DNA from: Sphingomonas sp.
Lineage (GTDB): Bacteria; Pseudomonadota; Alphaproteobacteria; Sphingomonadales; Sphingomonadaceae
Assembly: GCF_013816785.1 (NCBI RefSeq)
Contig: NZ_JACDDV010000006.1
Span: 18,020 to 76,345, forward strand
Length of the DNA: 58,326 nucleotides
Direction: 5' to 3'
Below are positions 4,887 to 46,606 of this stretch, one piece after another. The translations under genes and the position numbers were made by a program. The notes beneath the pieces were generated by a model. That model ran no database searches. It had not been told where the DNA came from and saw only the letters and a program-made list of their open reading frames with translations. The first letter of the stretch is position 1. The number at the start of each line of letters is the position of its first letter.

Positions 4887-5627
4887 ATGGCACGCAAGAA
4901 CAAGGGCAAGGGGGGCGGCAATCCTAATCGACCCCGATTCTGGGGCAAACACGCGGTGGCGGCGGCGCTCGACAATCCCGATCGCACGGTGTTCAAAGCT
5001 TGGTCGACCCGCGAAGCCGCGGAGTTTATGAACTTTCCCAAGGAAATGCCGGTGGTCCTTGCGGACGTCGCCGATCTGGGCCGCATGGTGCCCGGCGACA
5101 CGCCGCACCAAGGCGTGGTGGTCGAGGTCGAGCCGCTGGAGGATATCTGGCTGGCCGACCTGCTGGCTGGCGCGCCCGAACGCGCGGTGCTGCTGGTGCT
5201 CGACCAGGTCACCGACCCGCACAATGTCGGCGCCATCCTGCGTTCCGCCGCCGCGTTCGGGGCGATCGGCATCGTCACACAGGACCGCCACGCGCCGCCC
5301 GAAGGCGGGGCGCTGGCAAAAGCGGCGTCGGGCGCGTTGGAGCGGGTGCCGTGGGCGCGGGTGGTCAATTTGGCTCGCGCGCTGGAGGAAATAGCCGAAG
5401 CGGGTTTTTGGCGGATCGGGCTGGCGGGCGAAGCGCCGATGGAACTGAAGGAGGCGCTCGGCCCCCCGCGGATCGCGCTTGTGCTCGGCGCCGAAGGCCC
5501 GGGCATGCGCCACAATGTCCGCGAACATACCGACGCGCTGGCCAGGCTGCCGATTTCGGACGCGGTCGAAAGTTTGAACGTTTCCAACGCCGCCGCGGTG
5601 GCGCTTTACGCGGCGAGCGTCGCCTAA
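4887..5627 (+). CDS. rlmB: 23S rRNA 2'-O-methyltransferase, TrmH/RlmB family
   Basis: SpoU-family enzyme that 2'-O-methylates a guanosine of 23S rRNA (G2251 in E. coli RlmB). The 246-residue product has a basic, glycine-rich N-terminus and a substrate-binding domain (about residues 20-95). The SPOUT methyltransferase domain shows all three motifs: NVGAILRSA, VLGAEGPGM and LPISDAVESLNVSNAAAVALY. Lys- and Gly-rich tails of this kind are common in alphaproteobacterial members. The stop codon shares its last A with the next ATG, so the two genes are probably co-transcribed. The family is certain; the exact rRNA target is inferred. Confidence 0.9.
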   Translation: MARKNKGKGGGNPNRPRFWGKHAVAAALDNPDRTVFKAWSTREAAEFMNFPKEMPVVLADVADLGRMVPGDTPHQGVVVEVEPLEDIWLADLLAGAPERAVLLVLDQVTDPHNVGAILRSAAAFGAIGIVTQDRHAPPEGGALAKAASGALERVPWARVVNLARALEEIAEAGFWRIGLAGEAPMELKEALGPPRIALVLGAEGPGMRHNVREHTDALARLPISDAVESLNVSNAAAVALYAASVA

Positions 5628-6250
5628 TGGTCCGCACCGCGCAAAGCCTCAACGCCAGCCTCGATGCGTTGGCCAAACGAGAAAAGGCGTTTAAACGGGT
5701 GCTGAAAAGCCACGGCCGGCCCGAGCCTCGCCTTAGCGAGCCGGGCGTCGAGACGCTGCTCCGGACTATCGTCGGCCAACAGGTTAGTGTCGCCGCCGCG
5801 CGGTCGATGTGGAACAAGTTGATCGCCAAATATGGCCAGCCGGTCGATCTCGCCGCGCTCATCGAGGCGAGCGACGAGCAATTGCGCGAGGCCGGCCTGT
5901 CGCGGCAGAAGGCGAGCTATACGAGGAGCCTCGCGGGACTCGTCCTGTCGGGCGAGCTCGACCTCGCGCATTTACCCGAGGACGACGAGGAAGCGATTGC
6001 GCTTTTGATCAGAATCAAGGGGATTGGCCGCTGGTCGGCGGAAATCTATCTGCTGTTCGCCGAAGCGCGCGACGACATCTGGCCGGCGGGCGATCTCGCC
6101 GTGCAGATCGAGATCGGGCGGCTGCTCGGCCTCGACGAACGGCCTTCAGAAAAGCAGCTCCGCGAGCTGGCCGAGGCCTGGCGGCCTCATCGCGGCGCTG
6201 CAGCCGTGCTAGCCTGGCATAGCTATAACAGCATCGGCACGGCGCTCTAG
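5627..6250 (+). CDS. DNA-3-methyladenine glycosylase II-like (AlkA/HhH-GPD)
   Basis: Base-excision repair glycosylase removing alkylated purines. The start is taken at the ATG overlapping the rlmB stop (TAATG), giving 207 residues. Upstream in-frame sequence belongs to rlmB in another frame. The HhH-GPD fold is recognised by LLRTIVGQQVSVAAARSMW near residues 43-61, the helix-hairpin-helix IKGIGRWSAEIYLLFA (about 127-142) and the catalytic aspartate in WPAGDLAVQ (about 150-158). It lacks the N-terminal TBP-like domain of E. coli AlkA, as do many bacterial homologues. Confidence 0.88.
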   Translation: MVRTAQSLNASLDALAKREKAFKRVLKSHGRPEPRLSEPGVETLLRTIVGQQVSVAAARSMWNKLIAKYGQPVDLAALIEASDEQLREAGLSRQKASYTRSLAGLVLSGELDLAHLPEDDEEAIALLIRIKGIGRWSAEIYLLFAEARDDIWPAGDLAVQIEIGRLLGLDERPSEKQLRELAEAWRPHRGAAAVLAWHSYNSIGTAL

Positions 6251-6251
6251 C

Positions 6252-7505
6252 CTAACGCGACAGCCCCATGCTGTGGGCGCGGGTGCTGAGCCCGCGAAAG
6301 ATGCGCGGGCCGAGGTCAAGGCGGAACGGCGCGAGCTTTTCATCCTCATCGCCGCCGCGCCCAACGAGGAAGCTGGCCGATGCCTGGCCTTCACCGGCGG
6401 ACGAGCGGAAATGGACGTTGAAGGCCACCATCGGAACGAACAGGCGACGTCCCTCGACCTCGAAGTCGCGGACCTGATCGAGCGGCAGTCGCACCGCGCT
6501 TTTCAGGCTAACCCGGCCGAGCGGCGGGATTGCCGCCATGCGGTCGCCGGGACCTGCAGGCTGCTGAAAGAAGATGCCGATTTCCTCGTCCTGTGCGGCA
6601 TGAGCCGAAACCAGCTTGGCCTCGACCAGCACGTCGCGCGCGGGGGCGGAGCCGGCGTTGATGATCAGCATGTCATATTGAAGCATCACCTCGTGCTCGG
6701 TGACCACCGCCCGGTCGGGGGTGAACTGGACGCTGAGCTCGGGTTTGAGCCGGGTGGAGGTGATCAAACCGTCGCCGGCCGGGGGCGGAACGGGCACCGC
6801 GCGCGGCGGGATTGGATGATTGGCGGGGATGGGAGCAGGCGCGGGCGGAACCTTGCGCGGCAAGTCCGCAGCGGCGTCGGGCTGCGGTCCGGCAAACGCC
6901 AGCCGGCCGAAATCGGCGTAGCGGTCCCGCCGCGCGCGTCGATCCCGGAGCAAATAGAAAATACCGCCGGCCAGCGCGATCAGCGCGATGATCCACGGCC
7001 AGGTCGGGAACCCGCTTGGCGGTGACGCGGGCAGCGCGTCGTCCGCGGGCGGGGCCGTTACATCGAATGACGGCTGAGTGACCGCGCCGGGGGTGGGTCC
7101 GGAAAGGTCTTGCAGGCGCGAGGCCGGGGTCGCCGCGGGAAGCGTCGCATTGCCACGGGTGCGCGATGACTGGGCCGCTGCGGGCGGACGTGTCAGCGCT
7201 GGGCCGACCTGCGACACGGTGCCAGGTGAGACCGTCGATGGGGCGGCCCTCACTGGTCGCGCGGTGGGCGCAGGCTGGCCGGTCGCGGCCGTCGACGGCG
7301 TGTCGGCGCGGCGAGTGACGGTTCCGTTCAGCGTGAAGTTGCGCAATTGCGCTGGGCCAACGGTCTCGGCGGAGGGCGGCGGGGCGGCCGTGACGTCGAT
7401 CGGCGCATCGGTATTCTGTGCCCAGGCCGGGGCCGCGAGCGCGATCATCGATGCGGCGGTGGCGCTTCGGAAATTGGTCATCGTCATGCGGCGCAATGCC
7501 GTCAT
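6252..7505 (-). CDS. Signal-peptide membrane protein with Pro/Ala-rich linker, function unknown
   Basis: I do not recognise a characterised family. The 417-residue product has a signal peptide (about residues 1-29, ending APAWA) and a long Pro/Ala/Thr-rich, probably unstructured stretch to about residue 160. One membrane helix follows (about 168-187), then RDRRARR, then a C-terminal domain (about 235-400) of beta-strand character (VTEHEVMLQYDMLIINAG..APARDVLVEAKL). That region looks like an immunoglobulin-like or CARDB-like fold. The topology suggests a periplasmic linker and a cytoplasmic C-terminal domain. A GGCGGGGAA Shine-Dalgarno sequence supports the ATG at 7505. It runs convergent to the glycosylase gene with one base between them. 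Confidence 0.75.
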   Translation of the reverse strand: MTALRRMTMTNFRSATAASMIALAAPAWAQNTDAPIDVTAAPPPSAETVGPAQLRNFTLNGTVTRRADTPSTAATGQPAPTARPVRAAPSTVSPGTVSQVGPALTRPPAAAQSSRTRGNATLPAATPASRLQDLSGPTPGAVTQPSFDVTAPPADDALPASPPSGFPTWPWIIALIALAGGIFYLLRDRRARRDRYADFGRLAFAGPQPDAAADLPRKVPPAPAPIPANHPIPPRAVPVPPPAGDGLITSTRLKPELSVQFTPDRAVVTEHEVMLQYDMLIINAGSAPARDVLVEAKLVSAHAAQDEEIGIFFQQPAGPGDRMAAIPPLGRVSLKSAVRLPLDQVRDFEVEGRRLFVPMVAFNVHFRSSAGEGQASASFLVGRGGDEDEKLAPFRLDLGPRIFRGLSTRAHSMGLSR

Positions 7506-7622: not shown

Positions 7623-8314
7623 TTAGTGTTCGTCGACCAGCACCAGTTCCGCGTCGGAGACGGCTTCGATTGTGATGTGGGTCTCGCCGGTGATGGCGAC
7701 CCCATCGCCGCCGCTCGCCTCGATTCCGTTTACCTTCACGGCGGCCGACGGCACTAGATACAGATGGCGCTGGGGGTCGCCAACGTAGGCGAGGCTGGCC
7801 CCAGCTTTCAGCGTCGCGCCGAGTAACCGCGCGTCGGCATTGATCGATAGGGCGCCGTCGTCGGCATTGCCGCTGGCGAGCAATTGGAAGCTGCCTTCGC
7901 GAGCCCCTTTCGGGAACGGCATCATACCCCAGGCAGCTCCACCCCGGGCCGATCGGTTTCGACCCAGATCTGGAACAGCGTCGTCGGCTCGTCCTCCAAA
8001 TTATATTCGGCGTGGGTGACGCCGGATCCGGCGCTCATCACCTGGACGTCGCCGGCCGGCGTGCGGCCCTTGTTGCCGAGCGAATCCTGGTGGGTGATCG
8101 CGCCGGTGCGAACATAGGTGATAATTTCCATGTCGCGGTGCGGATGCGGCGGAAAGCCGCTTTTCGCCGCGATGCGGTCGTCGTTCCACACACGGATCGC
8201 GCCCCAGCCTGTGCGGGCCGGGTCGTGATAGTCGGCGAAGCTGAAATGGTGACGGGCGTCGAGCCAGCCATGGTCGGCGTGGCCGAGCGAAGCAAAGGGA
8301 CGAATGTCGATCAT
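7623..8314 (-). pseudogene. Pirin family protein, reading frame broken in two
   Basis: Pirins are bicupin proteins of about 230 residues, some with quercetinase activity. Here the family is split into two frames. Residues 1-130 (7922-8314) carry the N-terminal cupin with the metal-site motif HPHRDMEIITY and end in RPGVELPGV-stop. A second frame (7623-7925) begins MMPFPKGAREG and contains the C-terminal cupin. Adding one base near the junction (about 7930) restores the usual continuation AWGMMPFPKG, so a single-base deletion or sequencing error is the simplest explanation. Alternatively, the ATGA overlap at 7922-7925 could couple translation of two half-proteins. It lies downstream of the carbonic-anhydrase-like gene on the same strand. 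Confidence 0.8.
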
Positions 8315-8949: not shown

Positions 8950-9279
8950 ATGGCCTACGGCAGGGGACAAGATTTGCGCGACAGCATCGTTCCACGCCGG
9001 GCGGAGCGGATGCCCCTTCGTGCCGACGTCGACTTGCGCCGCGCCGGCGACCATCGCTATCGCGTCAATATCCTCGACTTCTCGCCAGCGGGGTGCCGCA
9101 TCGAGCTGCCCGAACGTGTGCTCTTGCAGGAAATCATCTGGGTCTCGCTGCCGGGCATCGAGACGCTCGAAGCGCGGGTTCAGTGGGTCAAGGACTGGGT
9201 CGCGGGCGTCGAATTCACTAGGCCGTTGCACCCGGCCGTGTTCGACATGGTGGCGCGCCGGATGAAAAGAGACGCTTGA
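8950..9279 (+). CDS. PilZ domain protein
   Basis: Small single-domain protein likely to bind cyclic di-GMP. The 109-residue product carries the two PilZ signatures: an Arg-rich RxxxR segment (PRRAERMPLR, about residues 15-24) and the (D/N)xSxxG motif in LDFSPAGCRIELP (about 42-54). Hydrophobic strands completing a beta barrel follow. It has no signal peptide or other domain, so it probably works as a stand-alone cytoplasmic adaptor. It is divergent from the carbonic-anhydrase-like gene with a 73-base gap. The start codon is not supported by a clear ribosome site. Confidence 0.82.
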   Translation: MAYGRGQDLRDSIVPRRAERMPLRADVDLRRAGDHRYRVNILDFSPAGCRIELPERVLLQEIIWVSLPGIETLEARVQWVKDWVAGVEFTRPLHPAVFDMVARRMKRDA

Positions 9280-9377: not shown

Positions 9378-10037
9378 ATGTCGAACATCGCGGGCAAAGC
9401 CTATGGCATGACGGTGGTGACACCGATGTCGCCCCGCCTGACCTGGTTGTGCTCCTATATCTTTCGCGCGGTGCGGTGCTTCCCGGCGACCTTGGGGCCG
9501 TTGATCGGCCTGTCGATTATCCACTTCGCTCGCTGGGCGATTATCAGGCGCGACCAATGGCCCAACCTCGGTAACGGACCGGAGCGGCTGCGACACGACT
9601 GCCTGCTGTTCTGCAGCAACTTCAATGGGACGTGGGACCAGTATATCGACGCCTTTTCGGCGGGCGTGCCCGCCGGGCTCAACCTCCTATGGTATCGCAA
9701 TGTCCGATTCCCCGGGGCGGTCCCGAATACGCCATTCAAGGAATATATTCGCGTCAATCAGCTCTTTACCGACTTTTACTACAACGCCACGCCAGGCGTC
9801 GCGCAACGTGACATCAAAAGCGCGCTCAGGGTGCGGCAAATGCTGCTCGACCTTGAGCGGGCCCATGCGCGGCTCAGCCCGGCCGAATTCGCCGGTGCCT
9901 ATCGCGCGGCGCTGATCGCAGTTCAAAACGATCTTGGCTCGCACGGGCCCTCGCCGGTGGCGTCAACCGACACGGCGACCGCCGATGCCAACAAGCTCCT
10001 CAGGATCGCCGAAGGGCAATATGCGGTAGCAATCTGA
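9378..10037 (+). CDS. Unrecognised protein with HFARWAII and LLFCSNFNG motifs
   Basis: I do not recognise a characterised family. The 219-residue product has HFARWAII at 49-56 and LLFCSNFNGTWDQYIDAF at 76-93. An aromatic-rich segment (YIRVNQLFTDFYYNATPG) and a helical C-terminus follow. The same two motif positions occur in the protein encoded next (HFARFAVI and LLFAAEFDPN), so the two appear to share a domain. The alternation of strand-like motifs would suit a ferredoxin-like alpha/beta fold of the kind found in DyP peroxidases; this is inference. Residues 22-47 are hydrophobic and could be membrane-associated. The start is supported by AAAGGGGG. First gene of a three-gene run ending in the DyP gene. 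Confidence 0.65.
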   Translation: MSNIAGKAYGMTVVTPMSPRLTWLCSYIFRAVRCFPATLGPLIGLSIIHFARWAIIRRDQWPNLGNGPERLRHDCLLFCSNFNGTWDQYIDAFSAGVPAGLNLLWYRNVRFPGAVPNTPFKEYIRVNQLFTDFYYNATPGVAQRDIKSALRVRQMLLDLERAHARLSPAEFAGAYRAALIAVQNDLGSHGPSPVASTDTATADANKLLRIAEGQYAVAI

Positions 10038-10065
10038 TCGGACCCCTCGCGGAAAGGCCGAACCC

Positions 10066-11028
10066 ATGCCGAATGTTGACGGCGGACATTATTTTCTGAC
10101 GGTGCTGGCGCCGTTACTGCTCAGCGACGAGCTGGCCGCCGACGGGTCGATCGAATGCCCCAGCAACATGTTGCGCAAGCTGCTGGCGCTTATGCCGACG
10201 ACCGGCGGCGGCCCCGAACCTACCCTTGCAGGATCGGAAATCGTCGGGCAGTTCGTCAGTCCGTTCGCACGCAACCGGCTTAACCACTTCGCCCGGTTCG
10301 CGGTAATCGAGGACGTTAATTACAATGGCCGGATCAACGGCGACGGGCTGTTCGAGGCGCTCAAAGGGATCAACCCGGCCGAGCTGCAAGCGGTCGATCA
10401 TCTGTCACGGCCCTATCTGCTGTTCGCAGCGGAGTTCGACCCCAATCGCGAAGGCGCGCCCGAGCCCGACGTCTATCTCGACAGGCTGTGGCAAACGATG
10501 GAGGTCGAGCTGCGCCAGATTTTTGGGCATTGTTATCGCTTCGTCGAGGTGCAGAACGCGGGCGATTTCGTCCGCTACATCAAGCGGTGCCAGGTCGAAA
10601 CGACCATGCCCTTCAACGATTACTGGATCGACCCGCCGCCGTTCAAGAGCTTGCGGATGTGGCCGCTCCTCGCAGGTGCAATCGCGCTGGCGGGCGCAGC
10701 CGGATTCGCCGTGTCGCGCGTCCTTCGATCCTTCATCGGCCCCGACCTGGAGTGGTCGCTAGCGTTCCTTGTGGGGATCGCCGTCCTGGTCTTCGTAATA
10801 TTGTTCGCGATACGCCGGCGCGCCGTCCAGCCGTTTGCCACCGCCCCCGGTTCGGATTTGGCGACCATCCTCAAGGCTCTCTATCTGCAGAAGAATTTCG
10901 TCGATTTTGCAATCACGAACCAAGGCGGCCCGCCCGACGCGCTGAGCACGGCGTTTGGCGATTTTCTCAAGCAGCATCGACCGCGCGAGGCTGAACCGTC
11001 GCAACCTCCTGCCGTGGTCAGCGCATGA
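10066..11028 (+). CDS. Unrecognised membrane protein sharing the HFAR motif
   Basis: No characterised family recognised. The 320-residue product has an N-terminal segment starting HYFLTVLAPL. HFARFAVIEDV (74-84) and LLFAAEFDPN (118-127) follow, equivalent in order and spacing to the motifs of the preceding protein. Two membrane helices come next (about 201-222 and 229-250, the second ending in RRR), and a cytoplasmic tail rich in Pro and Glu. It sits 28 bases after the previous gene. Its stop overlaps the start of the DyP gene (ATGA), so all three are probably translated from one mRNA. A membrane-anchored partner of the peroxidase is a plausible reading, not shown by sequence. Confidence 0.65.
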   Translation: MPNVDGGHYFLTVLAPLLLSDELAADGSIECPSNMLRKLLALMPTTGGGPEPTLAGSEIVGQFVSPFARNRLNHFARFAVIEDVNYNGRINGDGLFEALKGINPAELQAVDHLSRPYLLFAAEFDPNREGAPEPDVYLDRLWQTMEVELRQIFGHCYRFVEVQNAGDFVRYIKRCQVETTMPFNDYWIDPPPFKSLRMWPLLAGAIALAGAAGFAVSRVLRSFIGPDLEWSLAFLVGIAVLVFVILFAIRRRAVQPFATAPGSDLATILKALYLQKNFVDFAITNQGGPPDALSTAFGDFLKQHRPREAEPSQPPAVVSA

Positions 11029-12656
11029 CTACGGTCGTCGCACCACCCGGCAAGCCCGGCGCACTCGAACTAGCGGACATTCAGGGCAATATCCTTTCGG
11101 CCTATGGCAAGGAGGGCTTTCCCAAGGCGCGCTACCTCCTGATCAGTTCGAGCAACGCAGAGAAAGGCCGGGAGCTCGTCCGTTGGCTCTATCCAATGGT
11201 CACCACCGCCGTGCGCTGGCCGTCCAGCAAATATGGTCGCTTCGGCAAGGCCCGTGTCGAGCGACCGACAGTTGCACTCAACGTCGCCTTCTCATTTTGG
11301 GGCCTGGTCGCGCTTGGCGTGCCGGTGCGCACACTCGAAACCTTTCCCGACGAGTTCGTCCAGGGCATGGCGCGCCGTGGGATTATCCTGGGCGACATAT
11401 TGCCCGGCGTCGCCAAACCGCCGTGGGATCCTGTGTGGCAGAATGAGGAATCGCAGGACGGGGCGTCGAAAGGCCACATCCTCATCACGCTCAACGCACA
11501 GATGGACCCGGCCACGGGCGAGGCGGTGCCCGAACTTGAAGCGATGACATCGGCCATCCGCACGTTCTGCGTGAATAGCGCAGGCGCGCTTCAAATGCTC
11601 GCCGGGCATGATTCTTCCGGCGCCGATTTCCAGGCGCTCTCCGCGATCATCGAACCGACCACGGACGGCTTTCAACCGACGGCCAAGGAGCATTTCGGCT
11701 TCACCGACGCGATCAGCGATCCCGTGTTCAGCGGGCAGTTCCCGCGGGATCTCGAAGCCGAACGTGCGCGCGGCAACGGAAAAATGACGTCGAATGGTGA
11801 ATGGGTGCCGCTCGCGACGGGAGAGTTCCTGCTCGGCTACCCCGATGAGGCACAGGAAATCCCGGTGGGAGGAATGCTGCGCAGCTTCGGGCGCAACGGC
11901 ACCTTCATGGCTTACCGCAAGCTGCAGCAGAACGTCGTCGCGTTCCGAAAATGGATTGATGAGACGGCACCGCGATACGGCGCGGTCTCGGGCATTGTCG
12001 ACCCGATTGCGGCGCGCGCAACGCTGATGGCGAAAATCGCCGGACGCTGGCCGGATGGCGCGCCGATCTCGCTATTTCCCGATTATGCGACCTGGGTCGC
12101 GACTGAGGATTCGGCGACGGCGACGGTGGAGGAGCGGCGGCGCCTGTCCAATTTTGCCTATTTCGACGATCCGGACGGCGTCAAATGTCCGCTAACCTCC
12201 CATGTCCGGCGCGCCAATCCGCGCGACACCAATGGCCCGGCGCCATCGGATGGGCGCACCCCGTCGAAGAGCGGCACCGTGCTAACCGACCGCCGCCGCA
12301 TCTTGCGCCGCGGCCTTCCCTACGGTGTCTGCCCGGCCGACGCGACCGTCGAAGGCGAGCATGGCATTGTCATCCTGATCCTCTGTGCCAGCCTGCAGCG
12401 TCAGTTCGAATTCATGCAGCAGCAATGGGTCAATTACGGCGCCGATGCGCGTGCAGGCAACGACACCGACCCGCTGATAGGACTGCATGGCGACAAGGCC
12501 AAATTCGTTATCCCCGGCGACCCTTCGGAAGGCCGCCTGCCGTTCATCGCCGATGCGTTGCCGCAATTCGTCGAGACGCGCGGTGGCGCCTATTTCTTCG
12601 TGCCCAGCATGACCGCGTTGCAAATGCTTGGCCTGGGAATCATCGACCCGACCTGA
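11025..12656 (+). CDS. DyP-type heme peroxidase, long form with variant GxxDG motif
   Basis: Heme peroxidase of the dye-decolorizing family. The 543-residue product has the N-terminal family pattern (NVAFSFWGLVALGV..FPDEFVQGMA), the distal-pocket motif GFTDAISDP (225-233) and the segment GEFLLGYPDE. The proximal heme-ligand histidine is in CPLTSHVRRANPRD (His393), followed by RRRILRRGLPYG and ASLQRQFEFMQQQWVN. The catalytic Asp228 is kept, but the canonical GxxDG ends in Ala229 instead of Gly. Length and insertions place it with the large (C/D-type) DyPs. No signal peptide is seen, so it is probably cytoplasmic. Start codon overlaps the upstream stop (ATGA). Confidence 0.86.
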   Translation: MTTVVAPPGKPGALELADIQGNILSAYGKEGFPKARYLLISSSNAEKGRELVRWLYPMVTTAVRWPSSKYGRFGKARVERPTVALNVAFSFWGLVALGVPVRTLETFPDEFVQGMARRGIILGDILPGVAKPPWDPVWQNEESQDGASKGHILITLNAQMDPATGEAVPELEAMTSAIRTFCVNSAGALQMLAGHDSSGADFQALSAIIEPTTDGFQPTAKEHFGFTDAISDPVFSGQFPRDLEAERARGNGKMTSNGEWVPLATGEFLLGYPDEAQEIPVGGMLRSFGRNGTFMAYRKLQQNVVAFRKWIDETAPRYGAVSGIVDPIAARATLMAKIAGRWPDGAPISLFPDYATWVATEDSATATVEERRRLSNFAYFDDPDGVKCPLTSHVRRANPRDTNGPAPSDGRTPSKSGTVLTDRRRILRRGLPYGVCPADATVEGEHGIVILILCASLQRQFEFMQQQWVNYGADARAGNDTDPLIGLHGDKAKFVIPGDPSEGRLPFIADALPQFVETRGGAYFFVPSMTALQMLGLGIIDPT

Positions 12657-12662
12657 TCAGGC

Positions 12663-13955
12663 TCAAGCGGGGTCGAACTCGACCACCAAGTGCGCCGGGA
12701 ACGGTCCGTCCAGAGCCAGACGGCCCGCTTGGCCGGCGGCACGGCGCAGGTTGCGCTGGAGTAGCAAAGGTTTGAGCGTCTGGACTATCTGCGCCTCGGC
12801 CAGCGGCGCGCCGATGCACCAATGAATGCCGCTGCCAAGCGTTAGATTGTTGTGTGACGCGCGACCGGGATCGAACGCCTTCGGCCGCTCGATGCGGCGC
12901 GGATCGAACATCGCGGAGTGCGTGCTGACTAGCATTTTGGTGCCCTTGGGAATGCGCTTGGCGCGGCGCGTGCCTTGCGCCACGATTGCATCCTCGGCGC
13001 ATTCGCGAAACGGCCCCGGGTTGAGGGGCAGAAACCGAAACGCCTCCCACAGGCAGCGCTTCAGCAATTCGTCGTCATCGGCCCGCGCAGCGGCCTGCGT
13101 GGCGCGCATCATGTCTGGGCGCCTGAGCAGCATTTCGAGCATATGCCCACCGGCCATGGTGTTGGTGGGAACGAAGCCGGTGATCATGCCGATCAGGATC
13201 GCCCGGATGGTTTCGTCAGGAACTGGCGCTCCGTCGGCCCCTTTCGCCGATACTAGCCGTGCCGCGATCGTGTCGCTGCCGGCGGGCGCCGCGCGTGCCC
13301 CCGCAATCGCCGCGTCGATGATCGGGCGGAGTTCCGCACCCGCCTTGACGGCTTCGTCGCGCACCGTCGGATCGTTGGACGGGTCGCCGAACATGAAGGT
13401 GCTCATCGCGATCGTGATATGGGCAAAGCGAGTTTCGTTCGGGACCGCGACCCCATAATAGCGCTCGCAGATCCGGGTCGGTACGCGCGTCACCAGATCC
13501 TCAATCGCGTCGATCCGGCCGCGGCTGGACATGACCAGCGCCTCGGCTTCCTCGGCCGCGATGGGCCCGACGATCGCGCGATTGTCACTGGTAGGAAAGG
13601 TGTTGGCGACAAGTTCGTGGAGGGCCCGGTAATCGGCTCCGTCGGCCATGCCGAGGAGGAAATTCGGACCGCCGTTGAGCAATTCGATCTTAGGACCGAA
13701 CGGCACCGCGAACACGTCCTGGCGCTTCAACACTTCGATGACATCCTCGTAGCGGCTGATAAACGCCCACCCCCGAATCACGACGATTGGCCAGAATCGG
13801 CGCGCAAAGGCGTAAATCGCGTAGGGATGATCGAGCAGATAGGAGATCACGGCCGAGCCGATGCCGGGCTTCTTAGCCGCCACCCGGGCGGGCTGGAACC
13901 CGGTTCCGGACTGGCTCTGCTTTCGGCCTATCAGCGTGGCTGCTGCGTAGGTCAT
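12663..13955 (-). CDS. Cytochrome P450 with atypical I-helix and heme-binding motifs
   Basis: Heme-thiolate protein of 430 residues, normal bacterial P450 length. The K-helix ExxR is present (Glu304-Arg307) and the heme-loop cysteine is Cys380 in LGSGIHWCIG. Two departures are visible. The usual Phe of FGxGxHxCxG is Leu373. The I-helix oxygen-activation motif, normally acid-Thr, reads GFVPTNT (260-266), with Pro263 where the acid is expected. P450s without the acid-alcohol pair often use peroxide or catalyse rearrangements, so a peroxygenase-like role next to a DyP is possible (inference). No ferredoxin or reductase gene is nearby. ATG preceded by AAAGGGGG; 32 bases after the cyclase gene on the same strand. 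Confidence 0.88.
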   Translation of the reverse strand: MTYAAATLIGRKQSQSGTGFQPARVAAKKPGIGSAVISYLLDHPYAIYAFARRFWPIVVIRGWAFISRYEDVIEVLKRQDVFAVPFGPKIELLNGGPNFLLGMADGADYRALHELVANTFPTSDNRAIVGPIAAEEAEALVMSSRGRIDAIEDLVTRVPTRICERYYGVAVPNETRFAHITIAMSTFMFGDPSNDPTVRDEAVKAGAELRPIIDAAIAGARAAPAGSDTIAARLVSAKGADGAPVPDETIRAILIGMITGFVPTNTMAGGHMLEMLLRRPDMMRATQAAARADDDELLKRCLWEAFRFLPLNPGPFRECAEDAIVAQGTRRAKRIPKGTKMLVSTHSAMFDPRRIERPKAFDPGRASHNNLTLGSGIHWCIGAPLAEAQIVQTLKPLLLQRNLRRAAGQAGRLALDGPFPAHLVVEFDPA

Positions 13956-13961
13956 GTTATA

Positions 13962-13972
13962 CCCCCTTTACC
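13962..13972 (-). promoter_or_regulatory. Ribosome site and motif shared with the 9.3-kb inverted repeat
   Basis: On the minus strand GGTAAAGGGGG lies 6 bases before the P450 ATG. It provides the Shine-Dalgarno sequence and matches the ends of the GGTAAATTAAAGGGGG arm in front of the gene at 9378. It may be a shared regulatory or translational element of the two converging transcripts. Confidence 0.4.
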
Positions 13973-13987
13973 CGCGCAAGAACCAGG

Positions 13988-16900
13988 TCAGACGCGTATC
14001 TTGGCCACGATCGGCGATTGTTCTTCGAGCGACGCAAGCCCCGCGCGATAGCGCGACAGATGCAGTGCCGCCCCCTGACGCTCGGCAATCGCGATCGCGC
14101 GCCTGATGGCCGTCGTCGCCCCCTCAACATCGCCAAGTTGCCGCTGTAATTCGCCGCGCACCATAGCGATGTCCGCGCTGTCGTTGGCCATGCCGGTTTC
14201 GGCCATCACCGCCTCTGCCTTCGCGATTTCCTGACTGGCGGCCTCGAACTGCCCCCCCTCCATTAGCGCTTCGGCAAGCCACATGAAGAAGGTCGGCGCG
14301 TAGAGAACACTGCCGGTGCCGCGATAGTAGTCGATACCCGTCGACAGCACCGCAATCGCTTGCTCGATCGGGGCTGTGCTCATCAAGAGCCGGCCGCGCA
14401 GTATCTCGCATACGGCAGCATGGAATCCGATCTCATGCTCTCGCGTCAGGTCGGCCAGCTCGTTCACCATCGCTTCAGTCCCGTCGGTCAAGCCGTGGAA
14501 TAGGTTGACCAAAATCTGCCCGGTCAGCGCCTGGGCCAGATTATAAGGCTGGCCGAGCAGCCGCGCCTCGGCCACCGAATCCGCAGCCGCGGCGAACGCC
14601 TGGTCGCGATGGCCAAGGCTGCTGTGAACGAAGCCCGCGTACATCAACATCACGACGCGCGGATCGTCGACCACGATTTCCGCGTAGGCGCGCCGCCGCG
14701 ATGGGTCGAACTCGGCAAGTCCGCGTTCCAGAAAGGCAAGCGACCTGGCGAAATTGCCCAGCGGATAGCCGAGCACGCCTTGCGCGCGGCAACCAATCAC
14801 GACCCACACCGGATCGTTGGCCGCTTCGGCTTCCTTCAGCAATTCATCGGCCCGCGTTTCCGCCGAGTGCAGCCGGCCGCACAGCAGGTCGTTGATCCAC
14901 AGGCCGTGAAGAACGGCGAGCAGTTCCGCGCGATGCCCGGTGACCCCGCAAAGTTCACGCGCCCGTTCGAATGCGGCACCGGTTTCGGGGACGGCGTAAC
15001 CAACCGTGGCGATCAGCGCCTTGCCCAGCGCAAGCTGAAGCTTCAACTCGTCCTGCGAGCGCTCAGGTCCATCGGGCATCTGGGCGACGCAGGCCAGCCC
15101 GTGTTGCAGCCGTGCCTTGGCCTCGGGCATTGCCGAATTGGCCAGCGCCGCCAGCCCCGCCTTCAGCCAATAGCCAGCGGCGGCCCCGGCGTTGCCGCCT
15201 TCGGCCGCATAATGGGCAAGCCTTTCGGGCTTGTCACGAGCTATCGCCGACGAATCGGCCTCGAGCAATTCCAGCAATCGCAGGTTGAGCCGCCTTCGAT
15301 CGGCGCGCAGCAAAGTCGTGTAGGCCGCCTCCTGGATGAGCACGTGGCGAAACACGAATTGCTCCAGCCCGCGCGACGTGTCGGTCGTCACCAATCCGCT
15401 TTCGGTAAGCCGGTCGAGCGCGCCATTGATTTCGGCGATTGGAACCTCGGCCAGCGACGCCAGTAGGTCCCGTGTAAAACGGCGTCCGATTACAGATGCG
15501 ATCTGGGCAATGCGCTTGGCCGGGCCGAGCAGGGCGAGCCGGGCAAGGAGCGAGTCCTGCAGCGACATCGGCAGTTCGAACTCGTCGATCGGCATCTTGC
15601 CCTTTTCGGTCGCCAGCTCGACCGTCGACCGGGTCAATTCCTCCAGAAACAAGGGGACGCCGTCGGCCCGGCGGAGGATCGCCCGGCGGACGCTCGGCGG
15701 CAATCGCTCGGCTCCCGGCACGCTCAAGACCAGTGTGCCGGCCTCGACCAATTCCAGTGGCAGGAGGCGAAGCCGCTTGACGTGCGAAAGATCGGCCCAG
15801 CCGGGCTCAAACTCGGGCCGTGCAGTGACGATCAACAAAGCCTGGCCGAATTGACCGTCACGGATCGCGCGATCGAGCACGGTCAGTGACGTGGGATCGG
15901 CCCAGTGCGCGTCCTCGAAAAAGACCAATAGCGGAACCTGGTGCGAGAAGAGTTCGAATTGCCGCACAAGCGCATCGATCGTCCGATCAAGCCGCTGCGA
16001 CGCCGTGAGGTTGGCAACCGCCTCCGTCGCCGTCGCCTGGATACCAGCGAACCGGGCGAGCACTGCGGCGTCGTCCGGAGTGGTGTCGGGCGCCCAAGCC
16101 GCCACTCCGCCACGCGACGATCGCTGGAGATGGCTGACGAAAGGATAGAGCGGCGTTTCCGTGCTGTGCGCTGCGCACGATAGGTTGATGCGCTGCACGG
16201 GAACCGCCTGATCTTCAGCCAGGAAAGCGGTTGCCAGATGCGATTTACCGACACCCGGTTCGCCAATCAGCAGCAGCGCGCGGTCGGCCCCGGTCAGGGC
16301 ATCGCCTAGCGTCGACCGCATGGTCGCCAGTTCGGCATCGCGCCCGACCAGCAGGATAGACCGCTTGGCCGTCTGGGACGCCTCATGCAGCGTTGAATCG
16401 GAAACGCGCCAGGCCTGGACCGGGGCGACAAACCCCTTGACCTCGAATAGGCCAATATCGATCAGATCGAACGTCCCGCCGAGCACACGTCGTGTACCAT
16501 CCGAAACGACCACCGATTGGGGCGCCGCGCAGGATTGAAGCCGGGCAGCGAGATTGGCGACGGTGCCGACGACCTCATTGCCGCCTTCGCCGTCGCCCAA
16601 TTGATTGACGATGCCCTCTCCGGTGGCGATGCCGATACGGATACTCGCTGCTTCCCCATTTGGGAGAATCAGGTCGCTTGTTGCCGCGACCGCGCGAAGT
16701 CCGGCCAGCACGGCACGTTCGGCAGCATCCTCCTGTGCGGTCGGATAACCGAAATAGACCACGGCGCCGTCTCCGACTCGGCTGCCGACATAGCCACCAA
16801 GGCTCCGTGCCGCGCCTTCGACTGCGTGATGGAAATGTTCGACCGCGTCGCTGAAATCTTCCGGATCGCAAATGCCGGCAAGCGCGGTCGATCCGACCAG

Positions 16901-17065
16901 ATCGTAGAACATAATCGTCATCTGCCGCCGCTCGCCGGCGCGACGGGCACGATCGGGCAGCGCGACAATCGATCCTTCCCCACCCCCCTGGGTCAAGATA
17001 GAACCGCATTGGCCGCAGAAGCGGTTGCCCGCCGGTTGCTCCACGCGACACTTTTCGCAGTACAT
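13988..17065 (-). CDS. Zinc-ribbon / class III nucleotide cyclase / AAA ATPase / TPR-like regulator
   Basis: Large signalling protein of 1025 residues. Order of parts: a four-cysteine zinc ribbon (Cys3, Cys6, Cys17, Cys20); a class III adenylate/guanylate cyclase domain (about 45-220) with both metal-binding aspartates (Asp55 in FYDLVGST, Asp99 in VGDG); an AAA/STAND-type ATPase with Walker A GEPGVGKS near 268-275 and Walker B VFFEDAHWAD; then about 450 residues of helical TPR-like repeats to the C-terminus. No membrane helix is evident. Such fusions are known in proteobacteria and actinobacteria as presumed multi-input signal proteins. It precedes the P450 on the same strand and probably shares its transcript, suggesting a role in controlling the redox cluster. 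Confidence 0.88.
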   Translation of the reverse strand: MYCEKCRVEQPAGNRFCGQCGSILTQGGGEGSIVALPDRARRAGERRQMTIMFYDLVGSTALAGICDPEDFSDAVEHFHHAVEGAARSLGGYVGSRVGDGAVVYFGYPTAQEDAAERAVLAGLRAVAATSDLILPNGEAASIRIGIATGEGIVNQLGDGEGGNEVVGTVANLAARLQSCAAPQSVVVSDGTRRVLGGTFDLIDIGLFEVKGFVAPVQAWRVSDSTLHEASQTAKRSILLVGRDAELATMRSTLGDALTGADRALLLIGEPGVGKSHLATAFLAEDQAVPVQRINLSCAAHSTETPLYPFVSHLQRSSRGGVAAWAPDTTPDDAAVLARFAGIQATATEAVANLTASQRLDRTIDALVRQFELFSHQVPLLVFFEDAHWADPTSLTVLDRAIRDGQFGQALLIVTARPEFEPGWADLSHVKRLRLLPLELVEAGTLVLSVPGAERLPPSVRRAILRRADGVPLFLEELTRSTVELATEKGKMPIDEFELPMSLQDSLLARLALLGPAKRIAQIASVIGRRFTRDLLASLAEVPIAEINGALDRLTESGLVTTDTSRGLEQFVFRHVLIQEAAYTTLLRADRRRLNLRLLELLEADSSAIARDKPERLAHYAAEGGNAGAAAGYWLKAGLAALANSAMPEAKARLQHGLACVAQMPDGPERSQDELKLQLALGKALIATVGYAVPETGAAFERARELCGVTGHRAELLAVLHGLWINDLLCGRLHSAETRADELLKEAEAANDPVWVVIGCRAQGVLGYPLGNFARSLAFLERGLAEFDPSRRRAYAEIVVDDPRVVMLMYAGFVHSSLGHRDQAFAAAADSVAEARLLGQPYNLAQALTGQILVNLFHGLTDGTEAMVNELADLTREHEIGFHAAVCEILRGRLLMSTAPIEQAIAVLSTGIDYYRGTGSVLYAPTFFMWLAEALMEGGQFEAASQEIAKAEAVMAETGMANDSADIAMVRGELQRQLGDVEGATTAIRRAIAIAERQGAALHLSRYRAGLASLEEQSPIVAKIRV

Positions 17066-33874: not shown

Positions 33875-34067
33875 TTCATGCCTTTTCGTAGCGCGCGCGA
33901 CCAACGGAATGCGGTCGGCGGGCTGCCCCCTATCCGGAATTGCGCGCCTACTAAAGCGATCAGGTCAGCTCCCCCGTCCTCTGGTAAGGGCGAAATACTT
34001 TGCTTTACGAGGCACTGTGTCACCGGTCTTGGGTCGCGACCCAAACTCTCTCTGGGGTCAGTCGTGC

Positions 34068-34478
34068 CTACCGTTTCGCTTCGGTATTGATCAACCATGG
34101 AACTCCGAATTTGTCGGTTAGCATTCCGAATCCCGGTGACCATGGAGCTGCCTGGAACGGCATCGAGGCGCTTCCCCCCACAAGAAGGGCATCGAAAATT
34201 CGCCGCGCCTCCATCTTGTCTGCGACATGTACCGCCACGCTAAAGCCGCCGAGTTTCACGTCGTCCTCGGTAGGAGCATCGCAACCCATCAACGACTGAT
34301 CACCAACATCCAGCCACGCATGCATAATAAGTTTTTCGAATGCAGGGCCGAGCTTCTCCTCGCCAGGTACTTCTCCGAACGTAACCATCGCTTTAATTTC
34401 GCCGCCAAGAACTTCCGTGTAACGCTCGAACGCCTCTGCGCAATCACCCTTGAAATACAAATTAGAGATAATCTTCAC
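34068..34478 (-). CDS. VOC superfamily protein, PhnB/YjdN-like
   Basis: Glyoxalase-fold protein of 136 residues. The pattern NLYFKGDCAEAFERYTEVLGGE at the start and WSPGFGMLTDKFGVPWLIN at the end is characteristic of PhnB-like VOC proteins (3-demethylubiquinone methyltransferase-like annotation). Paired beta-alpha-beta modules lie between. The metal and substrate are not evident. Monocistronic on the minus strand, with a hairpin (34531-34548) upstream. Confidence 0.85.
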   Translation of the reverse strand: MKIISNLYFKGDCAEAFERYTEVLGGEIKAMVTFGEVPGEEKLGPAFEKLIMHAWLDVGDQSLMGCDAPTEDDVKLGGFSVAVHVADKMEARRIFDALLVGGSASMPFQAAPWSPGFGMLTDKFGVPWLINTEAKR

Positions 34479-34530
34479 AATATACTCCGCGTTAAACGAT
34501 CAGAACGACCTGTTTTAAATTTGTTGCCTG

Positions 34531-34548
34531 GCCGAACTAATGTTCGGC
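34531..34548. terminator. Perfect 7-bp hairpin between the LytTR and VOC genes
   Basis: GCCGAAC-TAAT-GTTCGGC is a perfect stem with a four-base loop in the AT-rich gap between two minus-strand genes. It could terminate the LytTR transcript (no clean T run follows) or serve as an operator for the VOC gene. Confidence 0.45.
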
Positions 34549-34635
34549 TTCAGTTTAATGTGATGCGCAGTACTGACTTCTGTCTGCGTCCGCCGGGCGT
34601 AATATCGCGAAAAGCTCTGAACGTGCGAATGTTAC

Positions 34636-35490
34636 TCAATTAATGTTCGACGGATTATAGACACGAGATTGAGCTTCCTGCCTTCCTCTTTCCGAAGAAT
34701 GGAAAAAAGTTGTGCGCGCTGCCCTCGAATATTTACGACCAACCGGAAGTTCATCGCCACTGGCAAAACGAACAATCGTCCTCCCATGAATCGAGCGGCG
34801 TACCGAGGTAACATAGTCTTGCCGAACGATGTACGATCGATGGATCCTTACAAATTTTTGAGGATTAAGCTTATTTGAAAACGAGCCGATCATCTCTCGA
34901 TATAGATGCGTTGAATTTCCGGTATAAAGGCGCACATATCCGCCTTCCGCCTGGATCCAATCAATTTGATTGAAATCGACTCTCACGAACTCGCCGCGGC
35001 GCGGGATCCAAAGGTGGTCGGACTCGAAGTCTGGATGCCGGTGTTGGTTGCGAAGGACTTCGAGAGCAAGCTTGATCTCGCCAAACCGGATTACAGACTC
35101 ACGTGCTTCAAGCGCAGTCCGCGCGCGCGTGAGTGCGACTTCAAGGCGTGAGCGGCGAACGGGTTTTGCCAGGAAATCAAGCGCGCCGGTGTCGAATGCG
35201 TGTACGGCGAACGCGGGAAAAGCACTCACGAAAACTACTAGCGGCGGAGCACGGCTGCCATCTACGAGTTGACCAAATTGCTTAGCGATATTGAAGCCGT
35301 GAAGCCCGGGCATCCCAATGTCCAGCAACAGCAAATTGGGCGATAAAGCCACAATCTGCGAAAGCGCCTCCCCCACGCTACGTGTCCGCGCGACGACCTC
35401 AACACCCGCGCACCGCGAAAGCATGCCCGAAAGCCGATCAACCGCAAGCGGCTCTTCATCGTAAACAAGCACCCGTAAACTTGTCGTCAC
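34636..35490 (-). CDS. LytTR family response regulator
   Basis: Two-domain regulator of 284 residues from a GTG start. The receiver domain (about 5-125) has the acidic pair Asp11/Glu12, phospho-acceptor Asp57 in LLLLDIGMPG, and the conserved Lys in LAKPVRRS. The LytTR DNA-binding domain (about 160-265) shows VRVDFNQIDWIQAEGGYVRLY and NPQKFVRIHRSYIVRQDYV. LytTR regulators normally pair with a membrane 5TM or LytS-type histidine kinase, but none is encoded nearby. Base composition is clearly lower in GC than in the core genes, suggesting acquisition. Confidence 0.9.
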   Translation of the reverse strand: MTTSLRVLVYDEEPLAVDRLSGMLSRCAGVEVVARTRSVGEALSQIVALSPNLLLLDIGMPGLHGFNIAKQFGQLVDGSRAPPLVVFVSAFPAFAVHAFDTGALDFLAKPVRRSRLEVALTRARTALEARESVIRFGEIKLALEVLRNQHRHPDFESDHLWIPRRGEFVRVDFNQIDWIQAEGGYVRLYTGNSTHLYREMIGSFSNKLNPQKFVRIHRSYIVRQDYVTSVRRSIHGRTIVRFASGDELPVGRKYSRAARTTFFHSSERGRQEAQSRVYNPSNIN

Positions 35491-35529
35491 TGCGCTCAGC
35501 CCATGGTTAAAAGATGCACGACTTGAATA

Positions 35530-36138
35530 TCAGCGATTGAAATCCGCGATCCAATTGACTTCCCAAGTTCTGCCGGCGTCCGCGGAGAAGGACTGCTCAA
35601 TGCGGAAAGTGGCCCCAGTCGTCCCGCTGAAGATGAAGCGGGCGAGAATCTGCCGACCGCCGAAAGTGTCGGCGTTGTAGAACTCACCCCCGCCCTTGCC
35701 GTCGAACACGCCGACCATGGGAGGGGTGAGCGCACCGTCCCGGCTGTTGGCCCAGCTGATCTTCCACTCCCGGCTCGCGGGGTCGTACAATCGTAGGCTC
35801 AGGCCCTGGATTTCCCCAGTTGGCCCGGTGACACGAAGTTCCCCGAAGTTCGCCGCGCCATTCCACACCTTGGCCACCGTCGAGATCCCGTCGAATTGGA
35901 CCCACTCGCTGGAACCGGTGAGCGGGCGAAGGCGGCGTGCAACATGGGCTTTCCAAGTTCCGAACTCGAAGTCGAAGTCATGGCTGCCATCGCGCGGCTG
36001 AGGCGCCCGGATCGGCGCCGGCCGTGTTGGAATATCCTGCGCGGCGGGAATAGCGAGGGCTGTTCGGGTTTCGGCCTGCGCGGACGCGGCGAGAATGCCG
36101 CAAAACAAGATTGCGGCTGTCCGGCAAATAATTGTCAT
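35530..36138 (-). CDS. Exported DUF1579-like protein (paralogue 1)
   Basis: The product from the ATG at 36138 is 202 residues with a signal peptide (about 1-22, ending SAQA). The mature part starts the family pattern HDFDFEFGTWKAHVARRL, continues with a central SLRLYDPASREWKISW and ends TWEVNWIADFNR. This matches two cytoplasmic proteins encoded at 44558-45597, so the three are paralogues. No enzymatic residues are evident; the family fold is a lipocalin-like barrel by analogy. The signal peptide makes this the exported copy. It lies divergent from the MocR-type regulator. Confidence 0.72.
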   Translation of the reverse strand: MTIICRTAAILFCGILAASAQAETRTALAIPAAQDIPTRPAPIRAPQPRDGSHDFDFEFGTWKAHVARRLRPLTGSSEWVQFDGISTVAKVWNGAANFGELRVTGPTGEIQGLSLRLYDPASREWKISWANSRDGALTPPMVGVFDGKGGGEFYNADTFGGRQILARFIFSGTTGATFRIEQSFSADAGRTWEVNWIADFNR

Positions 36139-43733: not shown

Positions 43734-44537
43734 CTAAAGTCGTGAGCGCGGAGTCGATTTGAGACGGAGAACCTGAGCGGGCCGCTCCTCGAGATCGGGC
43801 ATCAGCATCTGCGATCCGCGCTTGACGGCGGCACGCCCGCGCAGCGCCGACATCGCGCGTTCGTAATCAGCCATGCTGTCAACGTGTGTGAACCATACAA
43901 ATACTTTTTCACCTTGGCGAACCGGCAGGCGCGGGAATTCGTTGGGGCGGTTTTCACCGATGTAGCTCCCTAGAACGCGCGCACCCGCGCGTTCTAGGGC
44001 GGATCGTCCGCTAGTCTCGAAGAACGGAGAAAAGCCTTCCTTCGGCGCTTTCCAGAGATAGTGAACGGTCGCCACCATGAACCCGGATTTTGCCGGTTGA
44101 CCGAGCCGCCGTTCGACCGGCCTAAACCCCAGCCCTTCGGCCGATGGCTTCAGGAGCAAGACGTTATCGTTATCGTCGATCATCGAATTCGCCTCGTTGC
44201 GATGCGCCAGCCACAAAGGGCCGGTGTAAAATTCGGTAAGCGACGCAGCTCGGCCGGCCATGGTGGGGAATTCACGAATCCAGGTAAACCTGTTCGGATC
44301 GTCCATATCGCGGAATTGTCCAAGGAGTCGCATGCCTAGCTTCTCCTGGGAATCGACGAACTCGCGGTCGAAAAGCGTGATGAATGCGTCTCGTCTTCCC
44401 GTATTGAGCTTGTACTGGCGAAGCTCGATTACCGGATCCGCAACAGCGGGCACGACGGCCGCGCCGGAGGCAGTCTTACCCACTGCTGCCGTTGCAACCG
44501 CCGCAACCGATCCCGCGATAACCGTGCGTCTCGACAT
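43734..44537 (-). CDS. NIPSNAP family protein with Tat-like signal
   Basis: The start is the ATG at 44537, with TTGGAGAA upstream. The 267-residue product begins MSRRTVIAGSVAAVATAAVG, a twin-arginine-like signal. Two NIPSNAP (dimeric alpha-beta barrel) domains follow: IELRQYKLNTGRRDAFITLFD..FRDMDDPNRFTWIREFP in the first half and VHYLWKAPKEGFSPFF..VFVWFTHVDSMADYERAM in the second. NIPSNAP domains resemble ABM monooxygenases; activity unknown. 20 bases after the preceding gene. Confidence 0.84.
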   Translation of the reverse strand: MSRRTVIAGSVAAVATAAVGKTASGAAVVPAVADPVIELRQYKLNTGRRDAFITLFDREFVDSQEKLGMRLLGQFRDMDDPNRFTWIREFPTMAGRAASLTEFYTGPLWLAHRNEANSMIDDNDNVLLLKPSAEGLGFRPVERRLGQPAKSGFMVATVHYLWKAPKEGFSPFFETSGRSALERAGARVLGSYIGENRPNEFPRLPVRQGEKVFVWFTHVDSMADYERAMSALRGRAAVKRGSQMLMPDLEERPAQVLRLKSTPRSRL

Positions 44538-44557
44538 AATGGTTTCTCCAATAATTT

Positions 44558-45052
44558 TCACGCTTGCTGCCTCGCAAAATTCATGATCCAATTTGTTTCC
44601 CACATATTGCCCTCGTCGATGGAAAAGGCTTGCTCCCAACGTGCCGCGTTCCCGGCGATCTCAGACCAGATAAATCGAATTAGGATCTTGCGCTCGTCGA
44701 TCACGTCGTTGCCGACGAAAACACCACGTCCGCTCATGAAGCTTCCGACCACAGGAGGGTCAGGTCGCGGATGGCGCCCGTCGATCCAATAAATCATCCA
44801 AAGTGCCGACGAAGGATCGAACATTCTTACCGTGCAAGCGCGATAGGTGCCTTGAGGGTCGTTCAGGACGTTTTCGTCGAAGTTACCGCCACCGGCGAGG
44901 ATGGCGCGGGCGTTCATAGTGCCGTCGAACTCGTCCCAAACATCGTCGCCAACGAGGCGCTTGCGCAACTTGCGGTGGTGGACTGTCCAAGACCCGTGGA
45001 TAAAGTCGAAGTCGCGTGAACCACTAGGGGGACTTACTGCCAAAGCTGTCAT
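44558..45052 (-). CDS. DUF1579-like protein (paralogue 2)
   Basis: The start is the ATG at 45052 within an ATGA overlap with the preceding gene, giving 164 residues. Family pattern: RDFDFIHGSWTVHHRKLRKRL, then AILAGGGNFDENVLND and RACTVRMFDPSSALWMIYW. It ends MWETNWIMNFARQQA. It lacks a signal peptide and is closest to the protein encoded just upstream, so the pair is probably a tandem duplication. Function not known. Confidence 0.75.
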   Translation of the reverse strand: MTALAVSPPSGSRDFDFIHGSWTVHHRKLRKRLVGDDVWDEFDGTMNARAILAGGGNFDENVLNDPQGTYRACTVRMFDPSSALWMIYWIDGRHPRPDPPVVGSFMSGRGVFVGNDVIDERKILIRFIWSEIAGNAARWEQAFSIDEGNMWETNWIMNFARQQA

Positions 45053-45597: not shown

Positions 45598-45628
45598 CGA
45601 TTCCGACTCTTTTCCGCCCGCATTCGTT

Positions 45629-45650
45629 AAACAGGCCGGTTGTCCTGTTT
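45629..45650. promoter_or_regulatory. Inverted repeat upstream of the eight-gene accessory run
   Basis: AAACAGG (45629-45635) and CCTGTTT (45644-45650) form perfect 7-bp arms with an 8-bp spacer, 32 bases before the start at 45597. Next to it is the palindrome TTGATCAA (45649-45656). A likely operator for the run of genes; regulator unknown. Confidence 0.55.
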
Positions 45651-45869
45651 GATCAATCGTGTCAATCGGGGAATGATGGATTGCGGGCGTTCGCCATGAT
45701 GGCAAAACGTCTGCTCAGACCAATACCAGCTGCTTGGGAATACGAAGTCGACGGACCGCTGATCACCCAGATCGACGCCGCATCAGCCATACGGAGTTCG
45801 CGCATCGTCATCATCGGCGCGGAACGACTAACTCGATTGACCGACGTTGCCATTTCTGGCGCGGGGGCT

Positions 45870-46550: not shown

Positions 46551-46553
46551 TAT

Positions 46554-46583: not shown

Positions 46584-46606
46584 GCAAGTGACGAAGGATG
46601 TGAACC

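Follow-up and report, generated by a model that had tools for sequence, protein, structure and literature searches.

P450s and catalase-related proteins are both known to convert fatty-acid hydroperoxides without a reductase, often when fused to the enzyme that makes the hydroperoxide (PMC13049297, PMC5617202; here and throughout, statements on cited papers refer to the parts of them that were available). A P450 fused to a dioxygenase acts on such hydroperoxides (PMC13049297), and so do catalase-related allene oxide synthases or hydroperoxide lyases (AOS/HPL) fused to lipoxygenase (PMC5617202). We analysed 58,326 nucleotides of Sphingomonas sp. DNA (contig NZ_JACDDV010000006.1, positions 18,020 to 76,345; hereafter the window), in which two proteins with an HFAR motif, HFAR1 and HFAR2, and a DyP-type peroxidase are encoded next to a P450 and a class III nucleotide cyclase. 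The gene set is one conserved system, and we read its second heme enzyme as exchangeable, being more often a P450 and in other loci a catalase-like protein.

Fungal dioxygenase-P450 fusions of the linoleate diol synthase/PpoA type likewise hold two heme domains, one peroxidase-like and one P450, in a single polypeptide, and their P450 needs no redox partner (PMC13049297, PMC4420034). Their first domain belongs to the peroxidase-cyclooxygenase superfamily, whereas the peroxidase described here is a DyP by Pfam and does not show that membership; in our fusions the P450 is N-terminal, separated from the DyP by HFAR domains and predicted membrane helices. The AOS/HPL-lipoxygenase fusions also pair a small protein of the catalase superfamily with an oxidising enzyme. 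Here, in contrast, DyP and HFAR replace the lipoxygenase, P450 is the commoner partner, and the system is known from sequence alone. Set against DyP-type peroxidases in general, the present ones occur with HFAR and often stand beside, or are fused to, a P450 or a catalase-like protein. Since a DyP fused to a pyruvate-formate-lyase domain is already known (PMC5041501), DyP fusions as such are not new.

HFAR proteins and DyP belong to one conserved gene set

A search with the HFAR1 protein as query found HFAR domains in 3 of 61 relatives. With a three-row profile, 10 of 385 genomes from the class were positive, as were 25 of 398 from the phylum. Within the genus of the window they occur in 2 of 37 genomes, its own included. 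After removal of overlaps the three genome samples held 33 HFAR genomes, again counting that of the window. In all 33, DyP lies beside HFAR or is fused to it, and a P450 commonly adjoins (22/33). Because of this linkage, together with the fusions described below, we reject the view that the genes are chance neighbours. A sequence-only reading of the window had taken them for one system, which agrees with these counts; neighbourhoods without DyP, which it had named as a possible objection, were absent from the 33 genomes.

Further loci came from a contig scan that matched 426 stretches, 331 of them encoding relatives; the best 80 were kept as named loci. DyP is present in 75 of these, and the other five (L091, L098, L113, L133, L136) stop at a contig edge no more than 1.1 kb from the HFAR1 gene. 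A P450 was found in 54 of the 80, usually just after DyP on the same strand: 50 share the DyP strand and 4 are convergent as in the window (L082, L099, L135, L143; judged by length and lay-out, L082 and L005 are one contig). Contig ends truncate some of the 26 named loci that have no P450; elsewhere there is room, yet no P450. By title, the named loci include Burkholderia, Caballeronia, Thiohalocapsa and a metagenome-assembled genome of Verrucomicrobia, besides Caulobacter, Azospirillum, Roseomonas, Methylosinus, Mesorhizobium, Agrobacterium vitis, Erythrobacter and many Rhodobacterales. A plasmid search yielded 19 further records. Among the seven of these that were read are Acinetobacter lwoffii and Granulicella (Acidobacteriota), the latter with HFAR1-HFAR2-DyP and no P450 within the stretch read.

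In eight loci P450, HFAR and DyP are parts of one protein. Six of these triple fusions, 1408–1535 aa long, were seen among 32 sampled loci (L059, L063, L064, L066, L068, L069), and two more lie on named plasmids (Pararhizobium qamdonense WP_276121424.1 and Novosphingobium aromaticivorans pNL2 WP_011907039.1). A second HFAR unit follows the P450 in 7/8 (profile, E 1e-10 to 5e-5; not significant in L064), and hydrophobic helices precede the last HFAR unit in 8/8. With the DyP-P450 fusion of L054, P450 is fused with DyP in 9 loci. The L073 protein is a DyP-catalase fusion by profile and BLAST, with neither half matched by Pfam. Split frames were also noted: the DyP of L006 is in two parts, as are both the DyP and the P450 of L145.

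Neither HFAR protein matched a family above cut-off in Pfam or NCBIfam. A profile based on HFAR1 reached HFAR2 homologues after one extension round (that of the close relative L005 at 2.3e-13), and the motif His is kept in 172 of 178 aligned HFAR units. By these sequence comparisons HFAR1 and HFAR2 are one protein family, and the motif that had been noticed by eye in both is truly shared. The two are paired in most loci, and a second-round profile places the HFAR domain in HFAR2-type and longer proteins, often as a pair. The globular part of HFAR2 was modelled with a pLDDT (predicted local distance difference test) of 82.6 and a beta-alpha-beta-beta-alpha order; no sequence match to solved structures was found for HFAR2. 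The idea that HFAR is a diverged half of DyP was dropped, as hhalign showed no similarity between them.

Hydropathy analysis placed two hydrophobic segments in the window HFAR2 (aa 198-216 and 231-249). Of the named HFAR2 proteins, 46 had the length needed for scoring: two such segments are found in 38 of them, a single one in 6 and three in 2. Three double-HFAR proteins were tested, and each has at least one segment before its last HFAR unit. By the same measure the window HFAR1 and P450 have none. The window DyP has one of moderate hydrophobicity (aa 83-101), which is probably not a membrane helix.

The window DyP scores above cut-off for both DyP domains (PF21105, 33.5 bits against 27.5; PF20628, 27.6 against 20) and under cut-off for TIGR01413 (90.9 against 100.5). 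In an alignment of 115 rows the proximal His is present in all 115 and the arginines at Arg425 and Arg428 in 100%; Asp occupies 109 rows, the remainder being 5 gaps and 1 X. We take the roles of proximal His, distal Asp and Arg to be those of DyP enzymes. The window protein has GFTDA in place of GxxDG, as do 10 other rows. Its nearest solved relative by sequence, 8re2/8re3 ('Peroxidase, putative'), shares both Pfam domains and the His, Asp and Arg.

The five window genes lie where the sequence-only reading had placed them (Table 1), in two converging units; six bases separate the stop codon of DyP from that of the P450. HFAR1 and HFAR2 are separated by 28 bp and HFAR2 overlaps DyP by 4 bp; on the minus strand the cyclase lies upstream of the P450 with a gap of 32 bp. 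For the loci compared, open reading frame (ORF) calling was mechanical and the DNA is rich in GC, which makes start positions and some overlaps unreliable. Pfam supports the DyP (PF21105, PF20628), the P450 (PF00067) and the cyclase (PF00211, PF13191). Scans for promoters, terminators, Rfam families and repeats gave nothing specific.

Table 1. Genes of the HFAR-DyP locus in the window
Feature	Position	Strand	Length (aa)	Remarks
HFAR1	9378..10037	+	219	conserved His49 in IHFARW, SNFNGTWDQYIDAF motif; no Pfam/NCBIfam match
HFAR2	10066..11028	+	320	globular domain (aa 1-195 modelled), then two predicted transmembrane helices
DyP-type peroxidase	11025..12656	+	543	proximal His393, Asp228, Arg425/Arg428 present
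Cytochrome P450	12663..13955	-	430	Cys380, ExxR; Pro263 in I-helix acid position, Thr264 kept
Class III nucleotide cyclase with AAA_16 ATPase and TPR region	13988..17065	-	1025

The second heme enzyme

The window P450 is the only PF00067 match in a genome that is 99.95% complete. Across 79 aligned P450s the heme-thiolate Cys and the ExxR motif are invariant (79 rows each), and the I helix departs from the usual pattern. Its acid column holds Pro in 75 rows, Asp in 2, Ala in 1 and Gly in 1, and the alcohol column holds Thr in 75 and Gln in 4. The acid-alcohol pair is thus missing from the window P450 and 76 others, and present in L053 and L056. The register was set by profile alignment, which pairs 'GaiPT' with 'AAHDT' of the solved P450 3aba. 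A reading in which Pro replaces the alcohol was discarded, since this alignment and the Asp-Thr of L053 and L056 put Pro in the acid column. The P450 had been called atypical from the window alone, and the loss of Asp or Glu in 77/79 bears this out.

Catalase-like homologues occur in 9 loci, all of them without P450. Among the 33 HFAR genomes a catalase-like protein is present in 7 and both enzymes in none, which has a hypergeometric probability of 7.7e-5 if genomes are independent, relatedness being ignored. On two plasmids, pALWED3.4 of Acinetobacter lwoffii and one from Sphingomonas, the place of the P450 is taken by a protein annotated as 'catalase family protein'. No catalase-like protein was found among the 80 named loci. 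These partners are short heme proteins of the catalase superfamily: PF00199 is above cut-off for L077 and L052, and matches of the set's profile to solved structures include 1u5u/3dy5 and 3e4w. L077 is the pALWED3.4 locus; there a permafrost strain carries the HFAR-DyP-catalase set on a plasmid of 12.4 kb, and a 3-hydroxyacyl-CoA dehydrogenase gene follows the set.

On a DyP tree made by a quick method from 62 of the 115 rows (every third named row, short rows left out; long branches for L054, L074, L060 and L055), the contrast of P450 with catalase takes 4 changes. Setting catalase apart from every other label takes 5, of which 3 are forced by well-supported branches. We read this as the exchange of P450 and catalase-like protein at one position of the system. 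Such an exchange suggests that the two enzymes have one chemical step in common, which is open to direct assay. An obligatory P450 is ruled out, because 11 of the 33 genomes have none nearby and 7 of those 11 have a catalase-like protein.

The sequence-only reading, a peroxide-driven oxidation pathway under cyclic-nucleotide control, therefore stands in part. The single system, the atypical P450, the lack of a credible ferredoxin ORF beside it in a motif scan and the recurrent cyclase hold, and the residues would be consistent with peroxide-driven action; the P450 as a fixed part of the set does not hold, and neighbourhoods without it, for which the reading had suggested looking, do exist.

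A tentative two-heme cascade and its rivals

We tentatively favour a membrane-tethered oxidation cascade with two hemes, in which HFAR-DyP is followed by a P450 or catalase-like enzyme that works on a (hydro)peroxide, possibly a fatty-acid-like one, and needs no redox partner. HFAR1 and HFAR2 would keep the complex at the membrane and bind a lipophilic substrate or pass it on, and DyP would oxidise that substrate with peroxide. The second heme enzyme might then rearrange or reduce the resulting (hydro)peroxide, or use peroxide directly, in a step that would require neither NAD(P)H nor ferredoxin. Where a class III cyclase and a Crp-type regulator stand beside the genes, as in some lineages, they would probably act as controllers. 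We infer the complex, its membrane side, the substrate class, the hydroperoxide chemistry, the direction of the relay and the regulation from these features. A hydroperoxide-handling second step is the best single reading because of the partner exchange, the missing acid, the lack of a redox-partner gene and the membrane helices.

The weakest link is the role of DyP before the second step, and several observations weigh against the cascade as a whole. We know of no DyP that makes lipid hydroperoxides, and a lipoxygenase or dioxygenase gene beside the cassette was neither noted nor searched for. The retained Thr and the normal Asp-Thr pairs of L053 and L056 suit a conventional P450, and a housekeeping ferredoxin could still serve it. 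The HFAR1 model is poor (pLDDT 64.8, no significant fold match), and that of HFAR2 has no Foldseek match at E<=0.001; its best-probability match, at 0.44 and E 0.12, is 3hfk, a methylmuconolactone methylisomerase. This structure and the lower matches 9lmn and 3bf4 are, we presume, of the ferredoxin-like kind, the fold of the dimeric alpha+beta barrel that was considered as a candidate for HFAR.

Genomes without a partner add to these points. Four of the 33 have neither P450 nor catalase-like protein nearby (L050, L057, L058, L061); at L061 a RoxA-like cytochrome c gene lies near HFAR-DyP (5385-6779, minus strand). A search for family P450s covered 22 genomes, namely 20 partner-less ones and two positive controls with an adjacent P450, both recovered. 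At E 1e-15 no family P450 was found in 12 of the 20; 4 have a strong one elsewhere, two of these inside separate frames of ~1440 aa, and 4 have weak or partial matches only. The corresponding search for a catalase-like gene gave one positive among 14 partner-less genomes. HFAR-DyP can, it follows, stand alone.

A GST-like fifth gene directly follows the P450 on the same strand in at least 10 named loci, nine Rhodobacterales by title and one Nitrococcus (L096, L109, L125, L137, L138, L140, L145, L148, L149, L153; twelve proteins were put into the check, two of them unrelated). GST-like proteins act in eicosanoid pathways, and by that analogy the gene would fit a hydroperoxide product, which is no proof of one. 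A tally that covered 102 of the 280 neighbours chosen, each of them from L096-L160, counts further against the cascade: GST domains are its only recurrent family (9 members), others reaching at most 3 each. Lipid genes are scattered and not recurrent in it, so a lipid-gene neighbourhood was rejected.

A bolder form of the cascade would make the system a bacterial counterpart, built from unrelated parts, of the cyclooxygenase/thromboxane-synthase and lipoxygenase/allene-oxide-synthase cascades. The HFAR pair, anchored in the membrane, would present a lipid, DyP would make a hydroperoxide or radical, the P450 or catalase-like enzyme would turn it into an oxylipin-like signal, and the cyclase and Crp regulator would exert control; HFAR itself would then possibly bind heme or substrate through its conserved His. 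We consider this form doubtful.

Rather unlikely, in our view, is that, in line with the sequence-only reading, P450 and DyP each use hydrogen peroxide, attacking successive positions of the same secondary metabolite (aromatic, terpenoid or other), with no hydroperoxide handed over. The loss of the acid in 77/79 P450s and the lack of a credible ferredoxin ORF beside them are what a peroxygenase pathway would lead one to expect, and CYP152 peroxygenases also lack the acid-alcohol pair, with Arg-Pro in its place (PMC5377825). The P450s described here resemble them in having an altered pair that contains Pro. They have mostly Pro-Thr, however, and the carboxylate-binding Arg is missing; since CYP152 has Arg-Pro there (PMC5377825), they are not CYP152. 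The replacement of P450 by a catalase-like protein is also left unexplained.

In another reading, DyP and the second heme enzyme would remove peroxides or lipid hydroperoxides at the membrane, the P450 being a scavenger that reduces or isomerises hydroperoxides. The catalase-like partner in 9 loci and the intact DyP active site speak for such detoxification. In three of the catalase-like proteins, however (L060:10833-12029, L067:5847-7118, L073:8688-11390), Asn replaces the His of the HAK motif (GNTK for HAK), which we take to be the distal His, so that these are unlikely to be true catalases. Nor are the HFAR pair and the triple fusion obviously required for scavenging, and we hold this explanation to be unlikely, a little more so than the peroxygenase pathway.

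Improbable, and the weakest of these, is an ordinary electron-transfer P450 that draws on a housekeeping ferredoxin and is co-located with a DyP of the same catabolic route: Thr is kept in 75/79, L053 and L056 have Asp-Thr, and four Fer2 proteins are encoded elsewhere in the window genome, two of which we presume from their neighbours, and name by eye, to be an Isc-type ferredoxin and a PaaE-type reductase, but Pro fills the acid column in 75/79, the second enzyme is swapped for a catalase-like protein, and no credible ferredoxin ORF adjoins the P450 in 78 P450 loci (25 small ORF matches in a motif scan, by eye like non-coding frames) or in the window (0 matches around its genes), as the sequence-only reading had it.

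Cyclase, other neighbours and meaning

In 12 loci (L005/L082, L052, L059, L066, L068, L069, L074, L076, L099, L126, L143) a class III cyclase gene and the cassette are no more than 191 bp apart. Near-copies, 10 of 119 loci, were dropped for the control count, in which cyclases make up 8 of the 172 genes lying up to 300 bp from the cassette, against 1 of 766 at greater distance (Fisher p 8.5e-6, with related lineages not fully corrected for). The drop removed 4 near and 1 far cyclase ORFs; without it the total is 14, with 12 at 191 bp or less and the other two at 4.7 and 5.3 kb. The link seen in the window thus recurs, and the enrichment helps the idea of signalling. The architectures of adjoining cyclases vary (AAA or AAA/TPR, TPR, and one whose MASE2-like region scores slightly below cut-off), a variety that speaks for an association with the cassette that arose repeatedly. 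A core role is ruled out, as the cyclase adjoins the cassette in a minority of loci; it is probably a regulatory accessory. The cyclase of the window is one of two in its genome and is not filed as a TOMM kinase/cyclase because its score for that NCBIfam model, 354.6 bits, is well below the cut-off of 705.75.

Eight loci (L059, L066, L068, L069, L076, L099, L135 and L143) have a Crp-like gene no more than 154 bp from the cassette, a tally with no background count. In some lineages cyclase and Crp-type regulator probably control the cassette. TPR proteins of ~550-590 aa were also observed upstream of the fused gene (L063:5158-6906, L064:4453-6111, L079:1858-3546), with no cyclase domain at E 1e-4; in L059, L066, L068, L069 and L076 the same place is taken by a cyclase of 591-593 aa.

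Elsewhere in the window, Pfam identifies a PilZ-domain gene directly upstream of HFAR1 (8950-9279, plus strand). It is probably incidental, because no PilZ-like ORF was noted by eye upstream of HFAR1 in L005. On the minus strand (7623-8314) a pirin-like gene is split into two ORFs that overlap, the first at 7922-8314 with a Pfam Pirin match and the second at 7623-7925. GC content falls to 0.55-0.58 at 34001-36000 and 44001-48000, below the remainder of the window.

We found no description of this system in the open-access PMC literature. None of the DyP, P450, catalase and cyclase families is new; HFAR and the system as assembled match no named family or system that we found, and what is new is the system and its HFAR module. 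HFAR is a domain family unnamed in Pfam and NCBIfam, and the fusions are a natural single-chain coupling of DyP and P450. If the cascade proposed here is true, DyP peroxidases, whose natural role is often unclear, would gain a defined pathway context.

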